Below, piece after piece: positions 10,543 to 48,179 of a stretch of DNA of 48,195 nt. The stretch comes from Candidatus Bathyarchaeota archaeon (GTDB lineage Archaea > Thermoproteota > Bathyarchaeia > Bathyarchaeales > Bathycorpusculaceae), in NCBI GenBank assembly GCA_016927895.1, contig JAFGLT010000083.1, positions 1-48,195 of the forward strand. Direction: 5' to 3'. The position numbers and the translations under genes were made by a program. The notes beneath the pieces were generated by a model that was given only the letters and a program-made list of their open reading frames with translations, did no database searches and was not told the origin of the DNA. Position 1 is the first letter of the stretch. Each line of letters begins with the position of its first letter.

Positions 10543-11646
10543 TTGTGTGGAAAAAAAATGAGCACAGATGAAGTTGAAAGCACTTTTTTTCAGCGTACCT
10601 CAAGATGGAAATTTATCTTAATCCTTTTAGTTTTGGCTTTAATCATAACAGTTATAATATCTCTAGGCGTGGGTTCTACCCCCGTTCCGCTTTCAGACAT
10701 AGTTACCGTAATAGGCAAGAATATCCCATTTTTAGGTGGCCACATTGATTCTTCAGCGGTTACCCCTCAGAATGAGGCAATTATTCTTGAAGTACGTTTG
10801 CCGAGAATAATGGCCGGCGTTTTAATCGGCGCTGCCTTAGCAGCAGCAGGCGTCTTGTACCAAGGAGTATTCAAGAATCCTATGGCGGATTCATACGTGC
10901 TGGGCGTTTCAGCTGGCGCCGCGGTGGGAGCCTCTGTAGCTATACTTTCAGGTATAGGTTTTGTATTTCTTGAGTTGCGGCTTGTGCAGATTGCGGCTTT
11001 TCTCGGCGCTATATTCGCCATGTTTCTGGTTTACAACCTTTCGAGGGTCGGGTCTAGGGTTCCCGTGACAACGTTGTTACTCTGTGGAATCGCCGTCAAC
11101 TTCTTCTTGTTCGCAGTTGTCGGAATTTTGGAGATAGTAGCTGGCAACCAGCTTCCCGATATTGTGTTTTGGCTCATGGGGGGGTATTCAAACGTTTATT
11201 GGAAGGACATATTTGCAGTGCTGCCTTTCATAATAATAGGTATTATACTCGCGTATTTCTACGCCCGTGACCTTAACTTGCTTGCTATGGGTGAAGAAAC
11301 TGCTCATCACCTAGGTTTAAACGTTGAAAGAACTAAGCAGATTCTTCTGGTTTTGGCCTCTTTGATAACGGCGGCAGCGGTATCCATTTGTGGCCTCATA
11401 GGCTTCGTAGGTTTGATGATTCCTCACCTGACAAGACTTGTAATTGGACCTGACCATCGCATTCTCTTTCCAACCTCCACTATAATTGGTGCGATATTCT
11501 TAGTGATTTGCGATGATTTGGCTCGGGTTGTAGCGACTCCATTTGCATCAACCCTTGAAATACCCGTTGGAATCGTAACCATGCTTTTTGGTGCACCTTT
11601 TTTCATTTTCCTCCTAAAAAAGAAAAAACAGAGTTATTCAGCATGA
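10543..11646 (+). CDS. btuC: ABC transporter permease, FecCD/BtuC family (start may be 10558)
   Basis: LRLPRIMAGVLIGAALAAAGVLYQGVFKNPMADSYVLGVSAGAAVGA; GLIGFVGLMIPHLTRL. Confidence 0.92.
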   Translation: MCGKKMSTDEVESTFFQRTSRWKFILILLVLALIITVIISLGVGSTPVPLSDIVTVIGKNIPFLGGHIDSSAVTPQNEAIILEVRLPRIMAGVLIGAALAAAGVLYQGVFKNPMADSYVLGVSAGAAVGASVAILSGIGFVFLELRLVQIAAFLGAIFAMFLVYNLSRVGSRVPVTTLLLCGIAVNFFLFAVVGILEIVAGNQLPDIVFWLMGGYSNVYWKDIFAVLPFIIIGIILAYFYARDLNLLAMGEETAHHLGLNVERTKQILLVLASLITAAAVSICGLIGFVGLMIPHLTRLVIGPDHRILFPTSTIIGAIFLVICDDLARVVATPFASTLEIPVGIVTMLFGAPFFIFLLKKKKQSYSA

Positions 11647-26105: not shown

Positions 26106-26265
26106 AAGTTGATTCTAGGTTGAGACTGAAATAAAAATATTGTTAGCTTCTAGTCCACAAAAAAGTAACGATAGGTTTGCGAGAGGCTATGTCTTATCTA
26201 GTAACGATTGAGGTTTAGGTTTTGAAGGCGCCACGATTAGACCTCCTATAGGTTTATGCATACAA

Positions 26266-26300
26266 TTACTATTAGGTTCCTAATAGGCTCCAAATATTAT
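26266..26300 (+). repeat. Dispersed intergenic motif, copy 2
   Basis: TTACTATTAGGTTCCTAATAGGCTCCAAATAT; perfect palindrome CTATTAGG-TT-CCTAATAG. Confidence 0.65.
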
Positions 26301-41203: not shown

Positions 41204-41250
41204 GCTATATATAAGGCGGCTAAGTTTTTCCGCCTGATAGAGTTTCCCAG

Positions 41251-42663
41251 CTAGTCTCCTAAGATTCTTCTGAACGCAGGGAACATTTCTGCTGCGCGCT
41301 CACGCATCAACAGTTCGTAGTACTGGTAGATTATACCTACTGACAACAAGATGCCTGTTCCCGTTCCGAAAACGCCTAGGAAATCTGCAATTCCAGCGAT
41401 TAAGCCTACTATTATTCCACCGAGAACCGTAACCACCGGAATATACCGTTTAAGAATAGCCTGTATAGGTTTCCCAGAACGCCGATAACCTGGAATCTGC
41501 ATCCCTGAATCCATAAGTTGCTTCGCCACTTTATCAGGCCCAAGACCACCCACCTCAAGCCAAATAAGCGAGAAAACCGCACAAAACGCCACAAGAATAG
41601 CCAAGTACATCGCAGCCCTCACTGGCGCAGTAGCTACATCCGTGAGGCCATTGGGCGAAGTTACAAAGTAAGCAAGACCTCCAACAGGCGTAACGCTGCC
41701 ACTAGACGTGGTGTTATAGTCACCTATGATTTGGAAGAGCAGGTTCGTTCCGGGACTAGGTGCTCCCATCTGGCTCCAGAGCAGCTGAGAAAAGAAGTAG
41801 ACGTTAGCAAAAAGCGCAGACGCAAAGATAACTGGAAGGTTAGAAACATATAAAAGCTTAATCGGGTAACGGCTCCGGAAGCCCTTGTACCCAGCGTAAG
41901 TCATCGGCAACTCAACCCTGACACCTTCCAAGTAAATTATCACCAAGAAAGTTGCAACCGTTGCTAAGAACCCAATCAACGAGGGATAAGCTCCACCGCC
42001 AATCACCCAATCCGTTAACTGGTACGACGCATCACCTAATGAAAGCTGGTAAAGCCCACCTACGAACAAACCGGTTCCAGGATTAAACGTCTGCCAGAGA
42101 ATGTTCTGCGCAACTCCAGCCATAATGAAAAGGCTGATTCCGCTGCCCAAACCCCAACCTTTCTGAACCAGCTCATCCATCAGCATCACAATTATTCCAG
42201 CGCCAATAAGTTGCAGGAATATAATTATGGTCGTTGGTCCTGCAAGATCACCATACATGCCGCTTATTATGTATGCTGAAGCCTGAATTCCCGTAAGCAA
42301 TATGGAAAAGAATTTACTTGCAACCGTAAACAAGCCTCTGTCTTGAGAATCAGACATGTCAGCTTGTATGATAGCAGAACCAACTAGCAGCTGCAGTATT
42401 AAGCCTGCAGTAACTATGGGACCTATACCAAGTTCCATGAGCGTACCGCGGTTTGAAGCGAAAATTACTCTCAGGGAACCATAATATTCTTGCACGTCCC
42501 CGCTGATTCCATAAAGGGGGATTTCGGTCATAACCAAGTACACGATGAGAACGAGTGCTGTCCAGAAGATTTTTTCATTGAAGCTTACTTTGCGTTCAGG
42601 AACCTTGATTTCAGGAAGAACTCTTGCGAGTGGTTTGAAGAGGCTTAGAAATCTTCCGGCCAT
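41251..42663 (-). CDS. secY: Preprotein translocase subunit SecY
   Basis: Ten-TM archaeal SecY with GITTAGLILQLLVGS-like GPIVTAGLILQLLVGSAII; GWGLGSGISLFI; YAGYKGFRSRYPIKLLYVSNLPVI. Confidence 0.97.
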   Translation of the reverse strand: MAGRFLSLFKPLARVLPEIKVPERKVSFNEKIFWTALVLIVYLVMTEIPLYGISGDVQEYYGSLRVIFASNRGTLMELGIGPIVTAGLILQLLVGSAIIQADMSDSQDRGLFTVASKFFSILLTGIQASAYIISGMYGDLAGPTTIIIFLQLIGAGIIVMLMDELVQKGWGLGSGISLFIMAGVAQNILWQTFNPGTGLFVGGLYQLSLGDASYQLTDWVIGGGAYPSLIGFLATVATFLVIIYLEGVRVELPMTYAGYKGFRSRYPIKLLYVSNLPVIFASALFANVYFFSQLLWSQMGAPSPGTNLLFQIIGDYNTTSSGSVTPVGGLAYFVTSPNGLTDVATAPVRAAMYLAILVAFCAVFSLIWLEVGGLGPDKVAKQLMDSGMQIPGYRRSGKPIQAILKRYIPVVTVLGGIIVGLIAGIADFLGVFGTGTGILLSVGIIYQYYELLMRERAAEMFPAFRRILGD

Positions 42664-42672
42664 TGACTAAGG

Positions 42673-43110
42673 TTACTCTCCGTTTTCCTGCGACTGGGTT
42701 AAGACTTGTCCGCCAGCTTTCTTAATTTTGTCTTCTGCAGTTTTGGAGCAGGCAGAAACTGTTACGGTTAAGGGTTTTGTGATTCTGCCTGTGCCAAGGA
42801 GTTTAGTGTAGCCTAAGCTTGTTAGGTCTACGTGTGTTTTGCCTTGTTCTTTTTCAGTTGAGAGAACAGCTATTTCGTCAAGCTTGGCGATGTTGATGAC
42901 CTTTTCTTTGCGTTTGAGGCTTTGGGGTGAAGTAAAACCGTGTTTGCCGAAGTAGTTTGGCTCGTGTGCTGTAACGTAGCTCCAGAGGTGTTTGTGGCGT
43001 CCAACTTTTCGCTGGCCTTTTGAACCTGCATCTCTGTGCTGGCCGATCCTGCCATAGCCGTGAGTTCGGCTGCCGCGCATTTTTCTAGTTTTTCTTTCTT
43101 TATGGGGCAT
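42673..43110 (-). CDS. rpl15: Ribosomal protein uL15
   Basis: KMRGSRTHGYGRIGQHRDAGSKGQRKVGRHKHLWSYV; position upstream of secY. Confidence 0.95.
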   Translation of the reverse strand: MPHKERKTRKMRGSRTHGYGRIGQHRDAGSKGQRKVGRHKHLWSYVTAHEPNYFGKHGFTSPQSLKRKEKVINIAKLDEIAVLSTEKEQGKTHVDLTSLGYTKLLGTGRITKPLTVTVSACSKTAEDKIKKAGGQVLTQSQENGE

Positions 43111-43111
43111 T

Positions 43112-43585
43112 TTAATCAGCTTTTTTGTTTATTGTTTCTTTTTTTTGAAGTTTGATTTCTAGCACGCCGTTTTTGAAGGTGGTGCGGACGGCGTTTGGGA
43201 CAACTACTTTGGGTAGGTTTAAGCTTTTATAGTATCTGCGGTTTTTCGCTTTCGCTGACAGCGTTATTTTTTGGTCTTTCACATGTATTTTCAGGGTTTC
43301 CTTATTAAAGCCTGCGATTTCGGCGACTATAGTTATCCACTTTTTCTCTTGGAAAATGTCAATGAGCGGTTTAGGGTCCTTCCATTTCCGTCTGGCGTAG
43401 CTTTGGGTGGACCTGTAATGTTGAGGATAAAGTTTCCTTGAGGTGTGCATGTTTTCGATGCGCTGGATTTTAGGGTGGCTTTCAGCGTTATCTCTAATCT
43501 CGCTGTCTTCGTCAAGCCACTTCATGTGCTTCTTGCTTCTGCGCCACTTCGTACTCAAGTTTACTTCTCCTAAATACAAAGGCAT
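43112..43585 (-). CDS. Hsp20/alpha-crystallin-like protein
   Basis: VAEIAGFNKETLKIHVKDQKITLSAK...FKNGVLEIKL (ACD pattern); start at internal Met of ORF 43112..43657 is preferred. Confidence 0.7.
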   Translation of the reverse strand: MPLYLGEVNLSTKWRRSKKHMKWLDEDSEIRDNAESHPKIQRIENMHTSRKLYPQHYRSTQSYARRKWKDPKPLIDIFQEKKWITIVAEIAGFNKETLKIHVKDQKITLSAKAKNRRYYKSLNLPKVVVPNAVRTTFKNGVLEIKLQKKETINKKAD

Positions 43586-43789
43586 TTCCAACCTAACTAT
43601 AAAATGTATCGCACAAAAAAGAAAAGAAAACAAGACTGAACCGAACCTTGATTCCATGCAAAACCGCTTTTCTGTGGCGTTGATACTGTTATGCTTGGAA
43701 AAGACTATAGCCCCTTTTTATATAGAAACTATTTATAGAGGTGAACCGAGGCTGTGTGGGTGGACCCCCTGTAGCTTTCTGAAATGAAC

Positions 43790-43831
43790 TACTATTAGGC
43801 TCCTAATTAGCGGCAAATATGCTGGGTTGGT
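43790..43831 (+). repeat. Dispersed intergenic motif, copy 3
   Basis: CTATTAGGCTCCTAATTAGCGGCAAATATGCTGGGTTGGT. Confidence 0.7.
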
Positions 43832-43924
43832 CAGGTATTTTTTTATTCTATTTTAGACTGTAGAAATTTAGAAAATGAAAAATTAAACACGGGTTTACAT
43901 CCAAAGGCGAATAGAAAGTTTTAT

Positions 43925-44803
43925 ATGTTTGGTTGGATAATTTATCATGGAAGATTGCGTGAATTATACGAGGCGAAAAAACCTCATATAGCTACATCTG
44001 CGCTATTTTTGCTATGCTTCTTCTTAGCTATACAATTAATACCGATAAGCGATGTATCAGCATCCAACGATGTCGGCGCAGCTGTATTCTGCCCTAACAA
44101 TTTCGATCCAAGTGTCGATACCGCAAATGAAATTTCGCTTGCTAGAACAACTTACGCATATATAAAAAACATGCTTAGTGCCGAATATGGATATGTTTAC
44201 TTTGCTACCGATAGCTCTTGCACTGTTAACTACTATCTTGCAGCGCTCCAAAGTATAAAGACTATTTATGATCAGGCAGTAGTTTTTTCAAAAGGACACA
44301 GGGGCGTGCCGTTCTTATATTACAATCCACCTAATACCAATCACTTCTCGCTCTTAGATTATTATGGTTCCAATGTCATAGACGCCACAATTCATGGTAG
44401 GACATCAAGTGAAAACGTTTTCACGTTTATATGGCACTGTCAAACAGCTCAGCACTATCAATATGGTGTCATACCTCATGACAGTTACGGATATTATGGA
44501 ATGCCATACTGTTGGACACACAATGCATATATGTATTCGTGGGGCACTTCTGGAAGCCAAGTTTTCTTAGGATGGGTTGGTGGCTCGCCTCAATTTGAAA
44601 CCACGGCTGAAGGCTCTTACAACTATGCTCACGTTGCATACTTATTCTGGTACTGCGTGTGCAATGGTGCCCAAGTAGACGAAGCATTGAATACCATAGC
44701 TCAGACTGTTTTCGGAGACGCAAGCTACCTCCAATGTGCACAACTTAAGGACAAGTTAGTAGTATATGGAAATAGGGACTTGACCCTGCCCGCGGAGTGG
44801 TGA
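43925..44803 (+). CDS. Exported caspase/gingipain-like fold protein, putative Cys peptidase
   Basis: TIYDQAVVFSKGHRG (His), ENVFTFIWHCQTA (Cys), QVFLGWVGGSPQF, LVVYGNRDLTL; N-terminal TM. Confidence 0.6.
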   Translation: MFGWIIYHGRLRELYEAKKPHIATSALFLLCFFLAIQLIPISDVSASNDVGAAVFCPNNFDPSVDTANEISLARTTYAYIKNMLSAEYGYVYFATDSSCTVNYYLAALQSIKTIYDQAVVFSKGHRGVPFLYYNPPNTNHFSLLDYYGSNVIDATIHGRTSSENVFTFIWHCQTAQHYQYGVIPHDSYGYYGMPYCWTHNAYMYSWGTSGSQVFLGWVGGSPQFETTAEGSYNYAHVAYLFWYCVCNGAQVDEALNTIAQTVFGDASYLQCAQLKDKLVVYGNRDLTLPAEW

Positions 44804-45873
44804 ACTGTATGAAAAAACTATTGAAAAAAATCTGTGTGCTTCTGGTTATCACAATGATTGTAGCTTCTCTCGCAGTTTTTCCTGTTACGCATGCAGCGGA
44901 TACCGAGGCTCAAGTCCAAGCCAGAGCTTTAATGGAAAACGTGCTTCCTATGGATTTGTCAAAATACAATGCAACCCTCGAAAGCCAATCAAATGATGGA
45001 GAAGTAGATTTCTTGATATATAACTTGGATTCAGATGAAAGTACACTTCGTGTCTTTTGTCTTTTCAAAAATAATGCTCTTCTTTCTTGCAACATGTACG
45101 TGGATAAGGGGGAAGTTATCAACGACAAAAAGTACACTAACTTAATTGATGCTACAAAGAAGATACTTGAGGAGTACCAAACATACACTAAAATTGATTC
45201 AGCCGATATGATAGAGATGTTAGATGATGTTGATGTAACCAAGGATTCAAGCACGATGATAGGCAAAATCAATTTCACCAAAAACACCGTAAATGTCTAC
45301 GGGATTGAAGTTACAACGTTTAGGTGGGCATATACGGTAAATGGGGCGGAGTATACTAAATTAGAGGTCGAGTTTCAGAACGGAATCTTTTCTTGTCTCT
45401 ATGATACTCGAGGTGTCTACTCAATTGGCGATACCACCGTGAATATCTCAAGTGACCAAGCAATTGACATTGCGACGAAATACACAGAGACTTACTCATA
45501 CGCTTTGTCTGATGGTTCACGAGTTAGCGATTTCAATATAAATGAAGACAAAAGTGTAGCAAAGCTAGTCGCTTCTCCCATCAACTCTACGGAGCTTAGA
45601 CCTTACTGGCACGTTGAGTTGTATCTAGACCAAACTTACCCAGGTCATGTAGAGGGTTTAACAATCTACGTTTGGGCCAATTCCGGAGAAGTTTTCGCCT
45701 GCAGCAACATAGCTTACGGTGGGGAACTGCCTGATACGTCACCATCACCTTCATCCTCTCCCGAGAACAACACGGGATCAGTTGACATCAACACGATAGC
45801 TATAGTGGCAGCCATAGCTACAGTAGTTGTGATAGCAACAAGCGCATTATTAATTAAGAAAAGAAGCAAATAG
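44797..45873 (+). CDS. Exported protein with PepSY-like region, Pro/Ser stalk, C-terminal TM
   Basis: Signal peptide; SSDQAIDIATKYTETYSYAL...LRPYWHVELYLDQTYPGHVEGLTIYVWANSGEVFA; SPSPSSSPENN; C-term TM; overlaps upstream gene. Confidence 0.65.
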   Translation: MVNCMKKLLKKICVLLVITMIVASLAVFPVTHAADTEAQVQARALMENVLPMDLSKYNATLESQSNDGEVDFLIYNLDSDESTLRVFCLFKNNALLSCNMYVDKGEVINDKKYTNLIDATKKILEEYQTYTKIDSADMIEMLDDVDVTKDSSTMIGKINFTKNTVNVYGIEVTTFRWAYTVNGAEYTKLEVEFQNGIFSCLYDTRGVYSIGDTTVNISSDQAIDIATKYTETYSYALSDGSRVSDFNINEDKSVAKLVASPINSTELRPYWHVELYLDQTYPGHVEGLTIYVWANSGEVFACSNIAYGGELPDTSPSPSSSPENNTGSVDINTIAIVAAIATVVVIATSALLIKKRSK

Positions 45874-46356
45874 CAACCTCCCATTTTTCTTTCTTCTAAA
45901 TGCTAAAATCGCACTATGAAAAAATGAGTTATTAACTTTAAGCTGAGGGCTTTTGTTTCCATCGTTTACAACAGTTGCAAGGAACAGAGCGTGCGTAGTA
46001 GCATTGAATTTCAATCCAACCAAAGACTTGACGTATTTTCTAAATCAAGAATTATTTTAGAAATTCAGTTTTGCTCTAACGTTAAAAATTTAAGAATTAG
46101 AAAATCCAATTTAATCTTTGAATTTTTTCTTATATATCCTCCATATAAGAAAGTTTAAAAGATAGCACCCTCAGCTCTCCACAAGTCCAATCACCAAACA
46201 TATAACAAAGAAACGCCCATCGTATGCCCTTGGATGCGAATATAATGGGAACAAAACGCAACGTCATGTTGTATTTAGATAAAGAAATAGGTTGAAAAGT
46301 CGAAAGAACTAGGCTTTAATCTCTCAAAGACTTTTGAAACCCACTTAAAACAGTTA

Positions 46357-47295
46357 ATGACGCAGTTTTCAACGTGTAATTCCATAAACAAAGTTGATTC
46401 AGCGAATGAAAATGGTGAGTGGTGGGCCGGACCGGATTCGGACCGGCGACCTTCTGCACGTCAAGCACCTGGAATACCCATTGGAGAAACACTTTCTAAG
46501 TTCAGAGAATTCTTGATTGTTGATTTGAGGCGTTCAAAGAAGACAGCATACGAGCATACCTATTACATTAAGAGATTCCTGAAGGCTGTTAATGTTCCAT
46601 CAGAATTAGTGACTTCTGAGGCTGTCCGTGAGTATCTCAAGAGTTTGAATGTGAGTTCTGCGCAGTACAAGAATATCTTGATGGCTCTCAAAGTCTTCTT
46701 TAGAGATTTCATGAAGCATCCGGAAGTTGTTGAGAGTTTTAGATTTCCTCATCAAGTGTATAAGCCGAAGCATATTGTGAGCAAAGAAGATCTGAAAAGA
46801 TTTTATGATGCAATTGAGACGTCAAAAGAGAAAGCTTTGTTTCTGTTGTATGCTACTTCTGGATTGCGGAGACAAGAAATACTTTCGCTGAAGCCTGAAG
46901 ACGTTGATTTTGAGAAGCGGATGATTACTCCTAACAATCATTTGGGAGAGACGAAGAAGTCATGGTGCAGCTTCTATAATGAAGAAGCAGAAGAAGCTCT
47001 TAATGAGTACTTGGCTACGAAGAATCAGTCTAGAAGCAAGAGGATCTTCCCAATGCAGAGGCATGAAGTTGTGGAATTGTGGAAGTCTGCTAGAGAGAAG
47101 ACTGGATTGTATGTTACTCCTCAGAAGTTGAGGGAGTGGTTCTGTTCTGAAATGATGCATTTAGGAGTATCAGAAACATATATCGACGCTTTTTGTGGAA
47201 GAGTTCCAAAATCTGTTTTGGCTAGACATTATACTGATTTTTCGCCTGAGAAGCTAAAAGAAATCTACGTAGAGTCTGAATTGAGTGTTCTTTAA
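46357..47295 (+). CDS. Tyrosine recombinase/integrase
   Basis: SAM-like core-binding region plus R...KxxR...Y catalytic pattern; 312-aa ORF. Confidence 0.9.
   Translation: MTQFSTCNSINKVDSANENGEWWAGPDSDRRPSARQAPGIPIGETLSKFREFLIVDLRRSKKTAYEHTYYIKRFLKAVNVPSELVTSEAVREYLKSLNVSSAQYKNILMALKVFFRDFMKHPEVVESFRFPHQVYKPKHIVSKEDLKRFYDAIETSKEKALFLLYATSGLRRQEILSLKPEDVDFEKRMITPNNHLGETKKSWCSFYNEEAEEALNEYLATKNQSRSKRIFPMQRHEVVELWKSAREKTGLYVTPQKLREWFCSEMMHLGVSETYIDAFCGRVPKSVLARHYTDFSPEKLKEIYVESELSVL
46420..46467 (-). other. 3' half of tRNA-Val(GAC), including CCA, embedded in integrase coding sequence (att site)
   Basis: Reverse complement TGC-TTGACGT-GCA-GAAGGTC-GCCGG-TCCGAAT-CCGGT-CCGGCCC-A-CCA style: anticodon loop, T-arm, acceptor 3' strand; no matching 5' half. 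Confidence 0.8.
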
Positions 47296-47324: not shown

Positions 47325-48179
47325 TTAGCCACCTTGATGTCTTTGATTCGTAGAAGGTAACTTTGCTGTAGATATAATTTCTCTTGATAACGTGCCATCT
47401 GTCCCTGGTCCAGAATACTTCGCGGACGGATGAAAGAAAGTTACGAATGCCTCTAACCCATTAAACTCCATTGTTTGTTTAAAGCCCGATGGAAAACCAA
47501 TTCTAATCACACCTGGCTTAATTTCACCGTATCCTTCAAAAAGTATGGCTGAAGGAGGCAGGCTATCTTTATCTGGAAGAAGTGGAATTTGCTTTGTCCA
47601 TCCGGAAAAGAGAATGTCACCATAAGATTGCACCTGAAACTCTTCTTTTTTCATTATCTGTATGTTCTTGGCAGCCGGAGTGTTAAAATAAACCTCACTT
47701 AACGCTTTGCGTCTTCCCAAGCCAATTGGAATGTCTTGTACATGAGCTACGGGTACGAAAGCATTGCCTTTTGCTGTCTCAAGCCACAAGGAAATTACCA
47801 ACCAATTTTCAGCTCCAAATGAGGATTTCTCATTCCATTTATACACCTCAACTATCATTTCCGGTAACTTAAGATGATTGAGTTGGCGAATAACAGCCGA
47901 TGCACGTTTACCATAAAATACAATAGCATCCAATGGTGATCTTACCGTATGTTTCGAGGCATTTCTCATTTTGCTCAAAACTTCCTTTTCAGTTACCATC
48001 TTTGGCTTTTCTTTATATGAAATAACACTTTTTCTGTAGGGGCTATCTGGCCTAGAATAAGTATAAGAGTTATCGACAAAGGCGCTTACTTCAGCAGGAG
48101 GAGATTCAAGAATGGATTCAAGAGTTGTTTTTGATGGAACCTGGGCATTCCTCCAAAGATCATCCATCATAACTTTCAT
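47325..48179 (-). CDS. Hypothetical protein
   Basis: 284-aa ORF next to integrase; no recognised family. Confidence 0.65.
   Translation of the reverse strand: MKVMMDDLWRNAQVPSKTTLESILESPPAEVSAFVDNSYTYSRPDSPYRKSVISYKEKPKMVTEKEVLSKMRNASKHTVRSPLDAIVFYGKRASAVIRQLNHLKLPEMIVEVYKWNEKSSFGAENWLVISLWLETAKGNAFVPVAHVQDIPIGLGRRKALSEVYFNTPAAKNIQIMKKEEFQVQSYGDILFSGWTKQIPLLPDKDSLPPSAILFEGYGEIKPGVIRIGFPSGFKQTMEFNGLEAFVTFFHPSAKYSGPGTDGTLSREIISTAKLPSTNQRHQGG

Follow-up and report, generated by a model that had tools for sequence, protein, structure and literature searches.

Background

Previous work has described self-splitting integrases that use tRNA genes, as well as the shuffling of their int(N) and int(C) halves by homologous recombination; how such integrases persist despite destroying their own gene is still an open question in the field of archaeal mobile elements (PMC8371274). 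Amongst the closest described systems, the suicidal (type I) integrase of the Thermococcus plasmid pT26-2 has a gene that splits on integration and many tRNA targets (PMC8371274); the protein combines an RHH-like N-terminus, an antisense tRNA-derived att stretch, and a catalytic domain. In the fuselloviruses SSV1 and SSV2, attP likewise lies inside int, and this tyrosine recombinase gene is split by integration.

The locus described here contains the same succession of parts. An earlier note, made from the DNA sequence, had read positions 46224-47295 as one integrase gene with an internal attP. The analysis indicates instead that this region is very probably the attR of an element that integrated in tRNA-Val(GAC) by means of a self-splitting, SSV-type tyrosine integrase, joined to an older int(N). 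The two halves recognized in the note stand, as a resident, decayed int(N)/RHH segment to the left of position 46420 and, to its right, the int(C) contributed by a newer element, but the single gene gives way to a junction that most likely involves two elements.

The integrase locus in the window

The window, i.e., the whole stretch of 48,195 nucleotides that was analysed, is the entire contig C86 of a Bathyarchaeota MAG (G000). The relevant features are as follows.

41237..43738, no strand: host flank on the 3' side of tRNA-Val(GAC), 84% identical over 2.5 kb to contig C5 of genome G083 (L183 9103-11599)
43739..46418, no strand: probable remnant of an older insertion (2.7 kb), presumably a single element, with no counterpart in the empty site of G083
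43925-44803 and 44797-45873, no strand: ORFs inside the 2.7-kb remnant, the probable older int(N) lying at the tRNA-side end of the remnant
46193..46244, plus strand: conserved int leader, with TATA-like ACCAAACATATAACA and with GGATGCGAATAT directly 5' of the start codon (25-copy alignment)
46245..46419, plus strand: int(N) scar, probably resident, with its RHH (CcdA-like) segment and the linker; frameshift at 46290-46295 and TGA at 46293-46295
46420..46467, no strand: att core, the 3' half of tRNA-Val(GAC) in antisense, sharing 48 identical bp with the intact gene on contig C87 (L008 11062-11139)
46468..47295, plus strand: int(C) of the probable newer element, with SAM-like and catalytic domains (PF13495, PF00589, PF16795); callable as an ORF of 312 aa from 46357
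47325..48179, minus strand: first gene inside the probable newer element, at the contig end, with no Pfam match

Translation of the window reproduced the coordinates and frames of the earlier note: the frame from ATG 46245 reads MGTKRNVMLYLDKEIG and then meets TGA 46293-46295, and dropping one base at GG 46290/46291 restores the frame (...DKEIVEKSKELGFNLSKTFETHLKQLMTQ...), which continues into the 312-aa ORF at 46357-47295. The break is a +1 shift within 46290-46295, where the identity of the extra base is ambiguous. Rejoined across the break, the RHH-type N-terminus matches CcdA (PF07362) with 25.5 bits, above the Pfam cut-off of 22.4, in line with the RHH/CcdA-like reading; only positions 1-37 of the 71 in the profile, the DNA-binding half, are matched. 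The downstream ORF matches Phage_integrase (PF00589; 52.4 bits, 7e-14), Phage_integr_3 (PF16795; 1.5e-10, above cut-off and weaker than PF00589), and the SAM-like domain PF13495, and all catalytic positions of a tyrosine recombinase (R, QxxR, R, Y) are filled. The peptide WWAGPDSDRRPSARQA is encoded antisense to the 3' half of tRNA-Val(GAC), as the note had proposed for the linker, and positions 46419-46467 agree with the tRNA-Val(GAC) region of a congener at 49 of 49 positions. ARAGORN calls no tRNA-Val within the window, and the att core pattern has one match there and none in 100 shuffles. The product of 47325-48179 is similar to the C-terminal portion of a TrmB-type protein encoded on C87 (33% over 275 aa, E 9e-50); no contig overlapping the end of C86 was found in a search of the other contigs of the genome.

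The two ORFs of 43925-45873 encode 292 and 358 aa, lie between the host flank and the RHH scar, and are absent at the site of the congener. The 358-aa protein (44797-45873) has a hydrophobic N-terminal stretch and a membrane-anchor-like C-terminal end, gave no useful match in the Pfam search, and has relatives in several copies in G083. Elsewhere in the window, 48 bp at 26238-26285 are 85% identical to L183 8867-8914 (contig C5 of G083), outside the region of synteny, and are possibly a dispersed repeat.

The other end of the element and the empty site

The earlier note had suggested looking for an intact tRNA-Val(GAC) elsewhere in the genome, and one is present on C87, where an intact RHH frame (ATG at L008 10888) runs antisense into the complete tRNA gene (11062-11139); no recombinase lies beside this RHH and tRNA. 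In G083, a genome of the same genus, a single contig carries a window-like flank, then 78 bp, the intact tRNA-Val(GAC), and then C87-like DNA, and no RHH segment is found at the tRNA-Val site. The left part of this arrangement is 84% identical to window 41237-43738, and the right part is 81% identical to C87 11062-16000 over 4.96 kb. Because their counterparts are neighbours in G083, the window and C87 are taken as the two flanks of one tRNA-Val insertion, a pairing that rests on this synteny since C86 and C87 are separate contigs and the middle of the element is unassembled. The RHH segments of the window and C87 have an identity of 0.79, and that of the window reaches up to 0.85 with copies in other genomes; the C87 copy is therefore not the nearer one.

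A third RHH copy of the genome, on C119 (L009 1034-1292), adjoins tRNA-Pro(TGG), is frameshifted at a different codon, and is the scar of a separate old insertion. A 445-aa protein with no Pfam match is common to the element side of C87 (L008 3014-4351) and an element in genome G188 (L120 86-853), the proteins from C87 and from contig C25 of G188 being 34% identical (E 2e-47); judging from sequence, it is a candidate core gene of these elements, perhaps for replication.

Relatives with the same architecture

Unbroken homologues containing RHH, tRNA-derived linker, and recombinase, which the earlier note had proposed as a check, were found in two genomes, and the upstream frame is conserved. 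G002 encodes a 350-aa frame of this kind next to chromosomal-looking genes (contig C253), as well as an intact RHH with tRNA-Val on C30; a search for its empty site in G001 gave only fragmentary matches. Contig C25 of G188 encodes a 351-aa frame with a linker of tRNA-Gln type and, at a distance of 18 kb, carries another RHH copy oriented the same way. These frames, unbroken across the tRNA-derived linker, bear out an att site inside the integrase frame.

Complete elements display the integrated state. In the Bathyarchaeota MAG L005, a degraded RHH, the 48-bp core, and int(C) lie at 7.9-8.8 kb, and an intact RHH with tRNA-Val lies at the other end (15.0-15.2 kb), followed by tRNA-Ser as in C87. 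The complete 5.3-kb element of G049 is bounded by a divergent RHH-like frame with tRNA-Lys on one side and by int(C) on the other; the tRNA repeat is identical over 44 bp, and the RHH piece and int(C) share one reading frame through it. Its int(C) end lacks an RHH and represents the plain case, with no reinvasion. The SSV-type self-splitting layout proposed in the note is thus confirmed by int(N) and int(C) halves at the element ends with tRNA repeats of 44 bp (G049) and 48 bp (L005 and window/C87). The pattern of the window recurs at three other loci (L005, G002, and G188), and the four junctions comprise full-length ORFs in G002 and G188 and decayed ones in the window and L005. The two full-length ORFs would be chimeras produced by reinvasion and are presumably active.

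Several further loci depart from this pattern. A 27-kb candidate in G031 was dropped as support, its recombinase being of another class and its attR lacking an RHH. On contig C1 of that genome, this recombinase (L091 6024-6965) begins in a diverged tRNA-Val fragment, and an RHH with intact tRNA-Val lies 27 kb away (L092 19196-19273), an arrangement that represents either a 27-kb element in which an unrelated recombinase has been joined to an RHH or a set of nested insertions. In two species, an RHH with the 3' part of tRNA-Gln (L119 6641-6781 on contig C25 of G188; L125 9840-9971 on contig C32 of G189) has the same non-tRNA continuation, as if the 5' half of the tRNA had been lost or replaced. 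In L170 (contig C23 of G045), a recombinase frame starts with WGRWDLNPGSPTPQAG, a peptide that resembles a tRNA read in antisense; the tree places this enzyme apart from the present integrase group, and it is possibly another class of self-splitting integrase.

Distribution and conservation of the RHH module

At a threshold of E<=1e-8, the RHH profile matches in 45 of the 257 genomes of the class Bathyarchaeia, spread over 31 genera. At 29 of about 45 examined loci, the RHH lies antisense within 50 bp of the 3' end of an intact tRNA called by ARAGORN (Val(GAC), Val(TAC), Pro, Gln, and single cases of others). The alignment of 18 homologous segments spans 49 columns with a mean column identity of 78%, and codons 1-39 are under purifying selection (median dN/dS 0.147; 32 copies, 92 pairs limited to dS<1.5). 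The segment is preceded by a leader of ~60 nt, in which a TATA-like ACCAAACTTATAACA is followed by GGRTGCRAANGCAA before the ATG; in the alignment of 25 copies, the leader is kept across families and its conservation ends abruptly upstream. Examined for a palindromic operator, the leaders score higher for inverted repeats than shuffles do (mean 4.9 versus 3.9), with 26 of 32 above their own shuffled mean, for sequences that are related and mostly non-significant singly.

These results show that the RHH-like module with its own leader is a conserved N-terminal half common to elements aiming at different tRNAs; it is not peculiar to the window gene, being found repeatedly at the N-terminal end of integrases of this group within the class. 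Its identity was considered as a marker of tRNA specificity and gave no useful signal. In family f1, copies at the same tRNA (0.79) and at different tRNAs (0.76) hardly differ, so the RHH is unlikely to set tRNA specificity. It may bind DNA and thereby aid site recognition, multimerisation, or autoregulation. In the AlphaFold model of the G188 enzyme (mean pLDDT 85), the N-terminus has a pLDDT of about 77, helices at 13-21 and 26-40, and no strand in the monomer; the two predicted helices fit an RHH with modest confidence. No solved RHH structure matching the N-terminus by sequence was found.

Alternative readings and the frameshift

The contiguity of RHH, core, and recombinase in one direction, together with the existence of unbroken relatives, would also suit a free element whose single integrase gene (the attP form) had suffered an N-terminal frameshift or an assembly error. 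Such an element would carry no host flank, so this reading is contradicted by the 2.5 kb of left flank, which is chromosome syntenic with G083 leading to the same tRNA, and the matching right flank and intact tRNA on C87 also oppose it; it is considered very unlikely. That the RHH is a host gene lying downstream of tRNAs by chance, with an unrelated integrase, would accommodate the many copies that have no recombinase nearby. However, the leader-RHH unit recurs in antisense orientation at distances of 10-49 bp from Val, Pro, Gln, and other tRNAs, the tRNA-Val site of the congener lacks it, G002 and G188 have it fused in frame with recombinases, and the opposite ends of the G049 element carry the two halves, such that this reading is already contradicted and extremely improbable. 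The above-threshold CcdA match might alternatively mark the N-terminal half of an antitoxin, a relic of a toxin-antitoxin pair, but the toxin-binding half of the profile is unmatched, no small toxin-like partner (CcdB) occurs among the neighbouring ORFs, and the segment is tied to a tRNA and an integrase, leaving next to no likelihood for this origin.

The remaining alternative concerns the break itself. Programmed +1 recoding at GGT-TGA could regulate integrase synthesis, given a downstream frame that is open and conserved and a stop codon that immediately follows the shift. Against this, no other copy is broken at GGT-TGA and intact copies need no shift; the C119 copy is disrupted at another codon, and further copies contain stops or have lost their start codon. 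The RHH segment of the window is also probably a scar that was already in place, and not the int(N) belonging to the element itself; recoding is thus hardly credible. The frameshift is most likely decay of a scar, because intact RHH copies have no shift at this position, the stops, shifts, or missing start codons that disrupt other scars lie at different places, and the segment in the window is itself most likely a resident scar. The earlier note had likewise taken decay as the default, a choice that agrees with the lack of a break there in other copies. The single extra base may also be an assembly error. Judging from the reading frame, the in-frame ATG at 46357 might yield an RHH-less recombinase; truncated SSV integrases retain reduced activity in vitro (PMC8371274).

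Probable serial insertion by a self-splitting integrase

With both junctions, their shared core, and the empty site of the congener observed, the two-element attR can be set out as a sequence of events. The integrase gene of the free element would comprise a leader, the RHH domain, a linker with attP (the tRNA 3' half), a SAM-like domain, and the catalytic domain. On recombination within the tRNA, this gene would leave its int(N)/RHH half beside the repaired tRNA, as on C87, and have its int(C)/catalytic half at the opposite end of the element, as in the window. An older element of the same kind would have integrated earlier at tRNA-Val and left its own int(N), and the newer element would then have inserted into the tRNA of that insertion; because an int(N) was already there, the incoming int(C) would have been joined to the old RHH segment, which subsequently decayed by frameshift. 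The newer element's own int(N) would be the intact RHH beside tRNA-Val on C87. The simplest account of the 2.7 kb at 43739-46418 is a remnant of the older insertion with its int(N), the rest of that element presumably having been lost, and the RHH of the window most likely derives from it because the empty site of the congener has none. The int(C) end of the older element was not found, and no free circular form was seen. Searches of viral contigs gave no match to the RHH profile or the G188 integrase and one weak match to the integrase profile, and the window ORF had no match amongst phages.

It is most likely that tRNA sites of this kind are hit repeatedly and that integrase halves of different elements become joined. 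Since every insertion would deposit a full leader-RHH int(N) next to the tRNA, the int(C) of the following element would land behind an RHH. Serial integration at one tRNA might, as a tentative proposal, undo the suicide by producing a full-length, chimeric, excision-capable integrase in the integrated state, thereby reshuffling halves in the absence of homologous recombination, and the RHH left behind may act as a free-standing regulator between insertions. These loci offer a direct and testable route by which repeat hits on one tRNA rejoin the halves, sometimes into a complete gene, and they extend self-splitting integrases across the Bathyarchaeia.

Comparison with known systems

In the literature searched, which does not include the main 2020 paper in Mol Biol Evol, neither an RHH N-terminus of suicidal integrases nor the rejoining of halves through successive integrations at a single tRNA is mentioned. 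Phylogenetically, the Bathyarchaeia enzymes cluster together (SH-aLRT 89) next to SSV1, SSV2, and pT26-2, in a tree with long branches. An end-to-end alignment between the pT26-2 integrase and the G188 enzyme starts at residue 2 (26% identity, pairwise E 6e-15). The N-terminus of the pT26-2 protein, KTRVHLYLDAEVVGGLKAEGFSLSALANKLLKEHL, looks like the same RHH, with a CcdA match (E 0.026) below cut-off. This integrase differs in its hosts, in its separate tree branch, and in its best catalytic match, which is PF16795, whereas the Bathyarchaeia enzymes match PF00589 better. The SSV1 integrase differs in having another N-terminal domain (PF07935), and the HxxR motif begins with K in SSV and with Q in the window. 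The best solved relative of the G188 recombinase part is the archaeal XerA (PDB 4a8e; phmmer 2.6e-11, Foldseek 1.6e-11), which, unlike these enzymes, is a chromosomal resolvase with no RHH and no internal att. The described int(N)/int(C) exchange model (PMC8371274) likewise yields chimeric integrases from halves of different elements, but it uses homologous recombination between elements, whereas at the present loci the halves would be joined by repeated site-specific integration at one tRNA.
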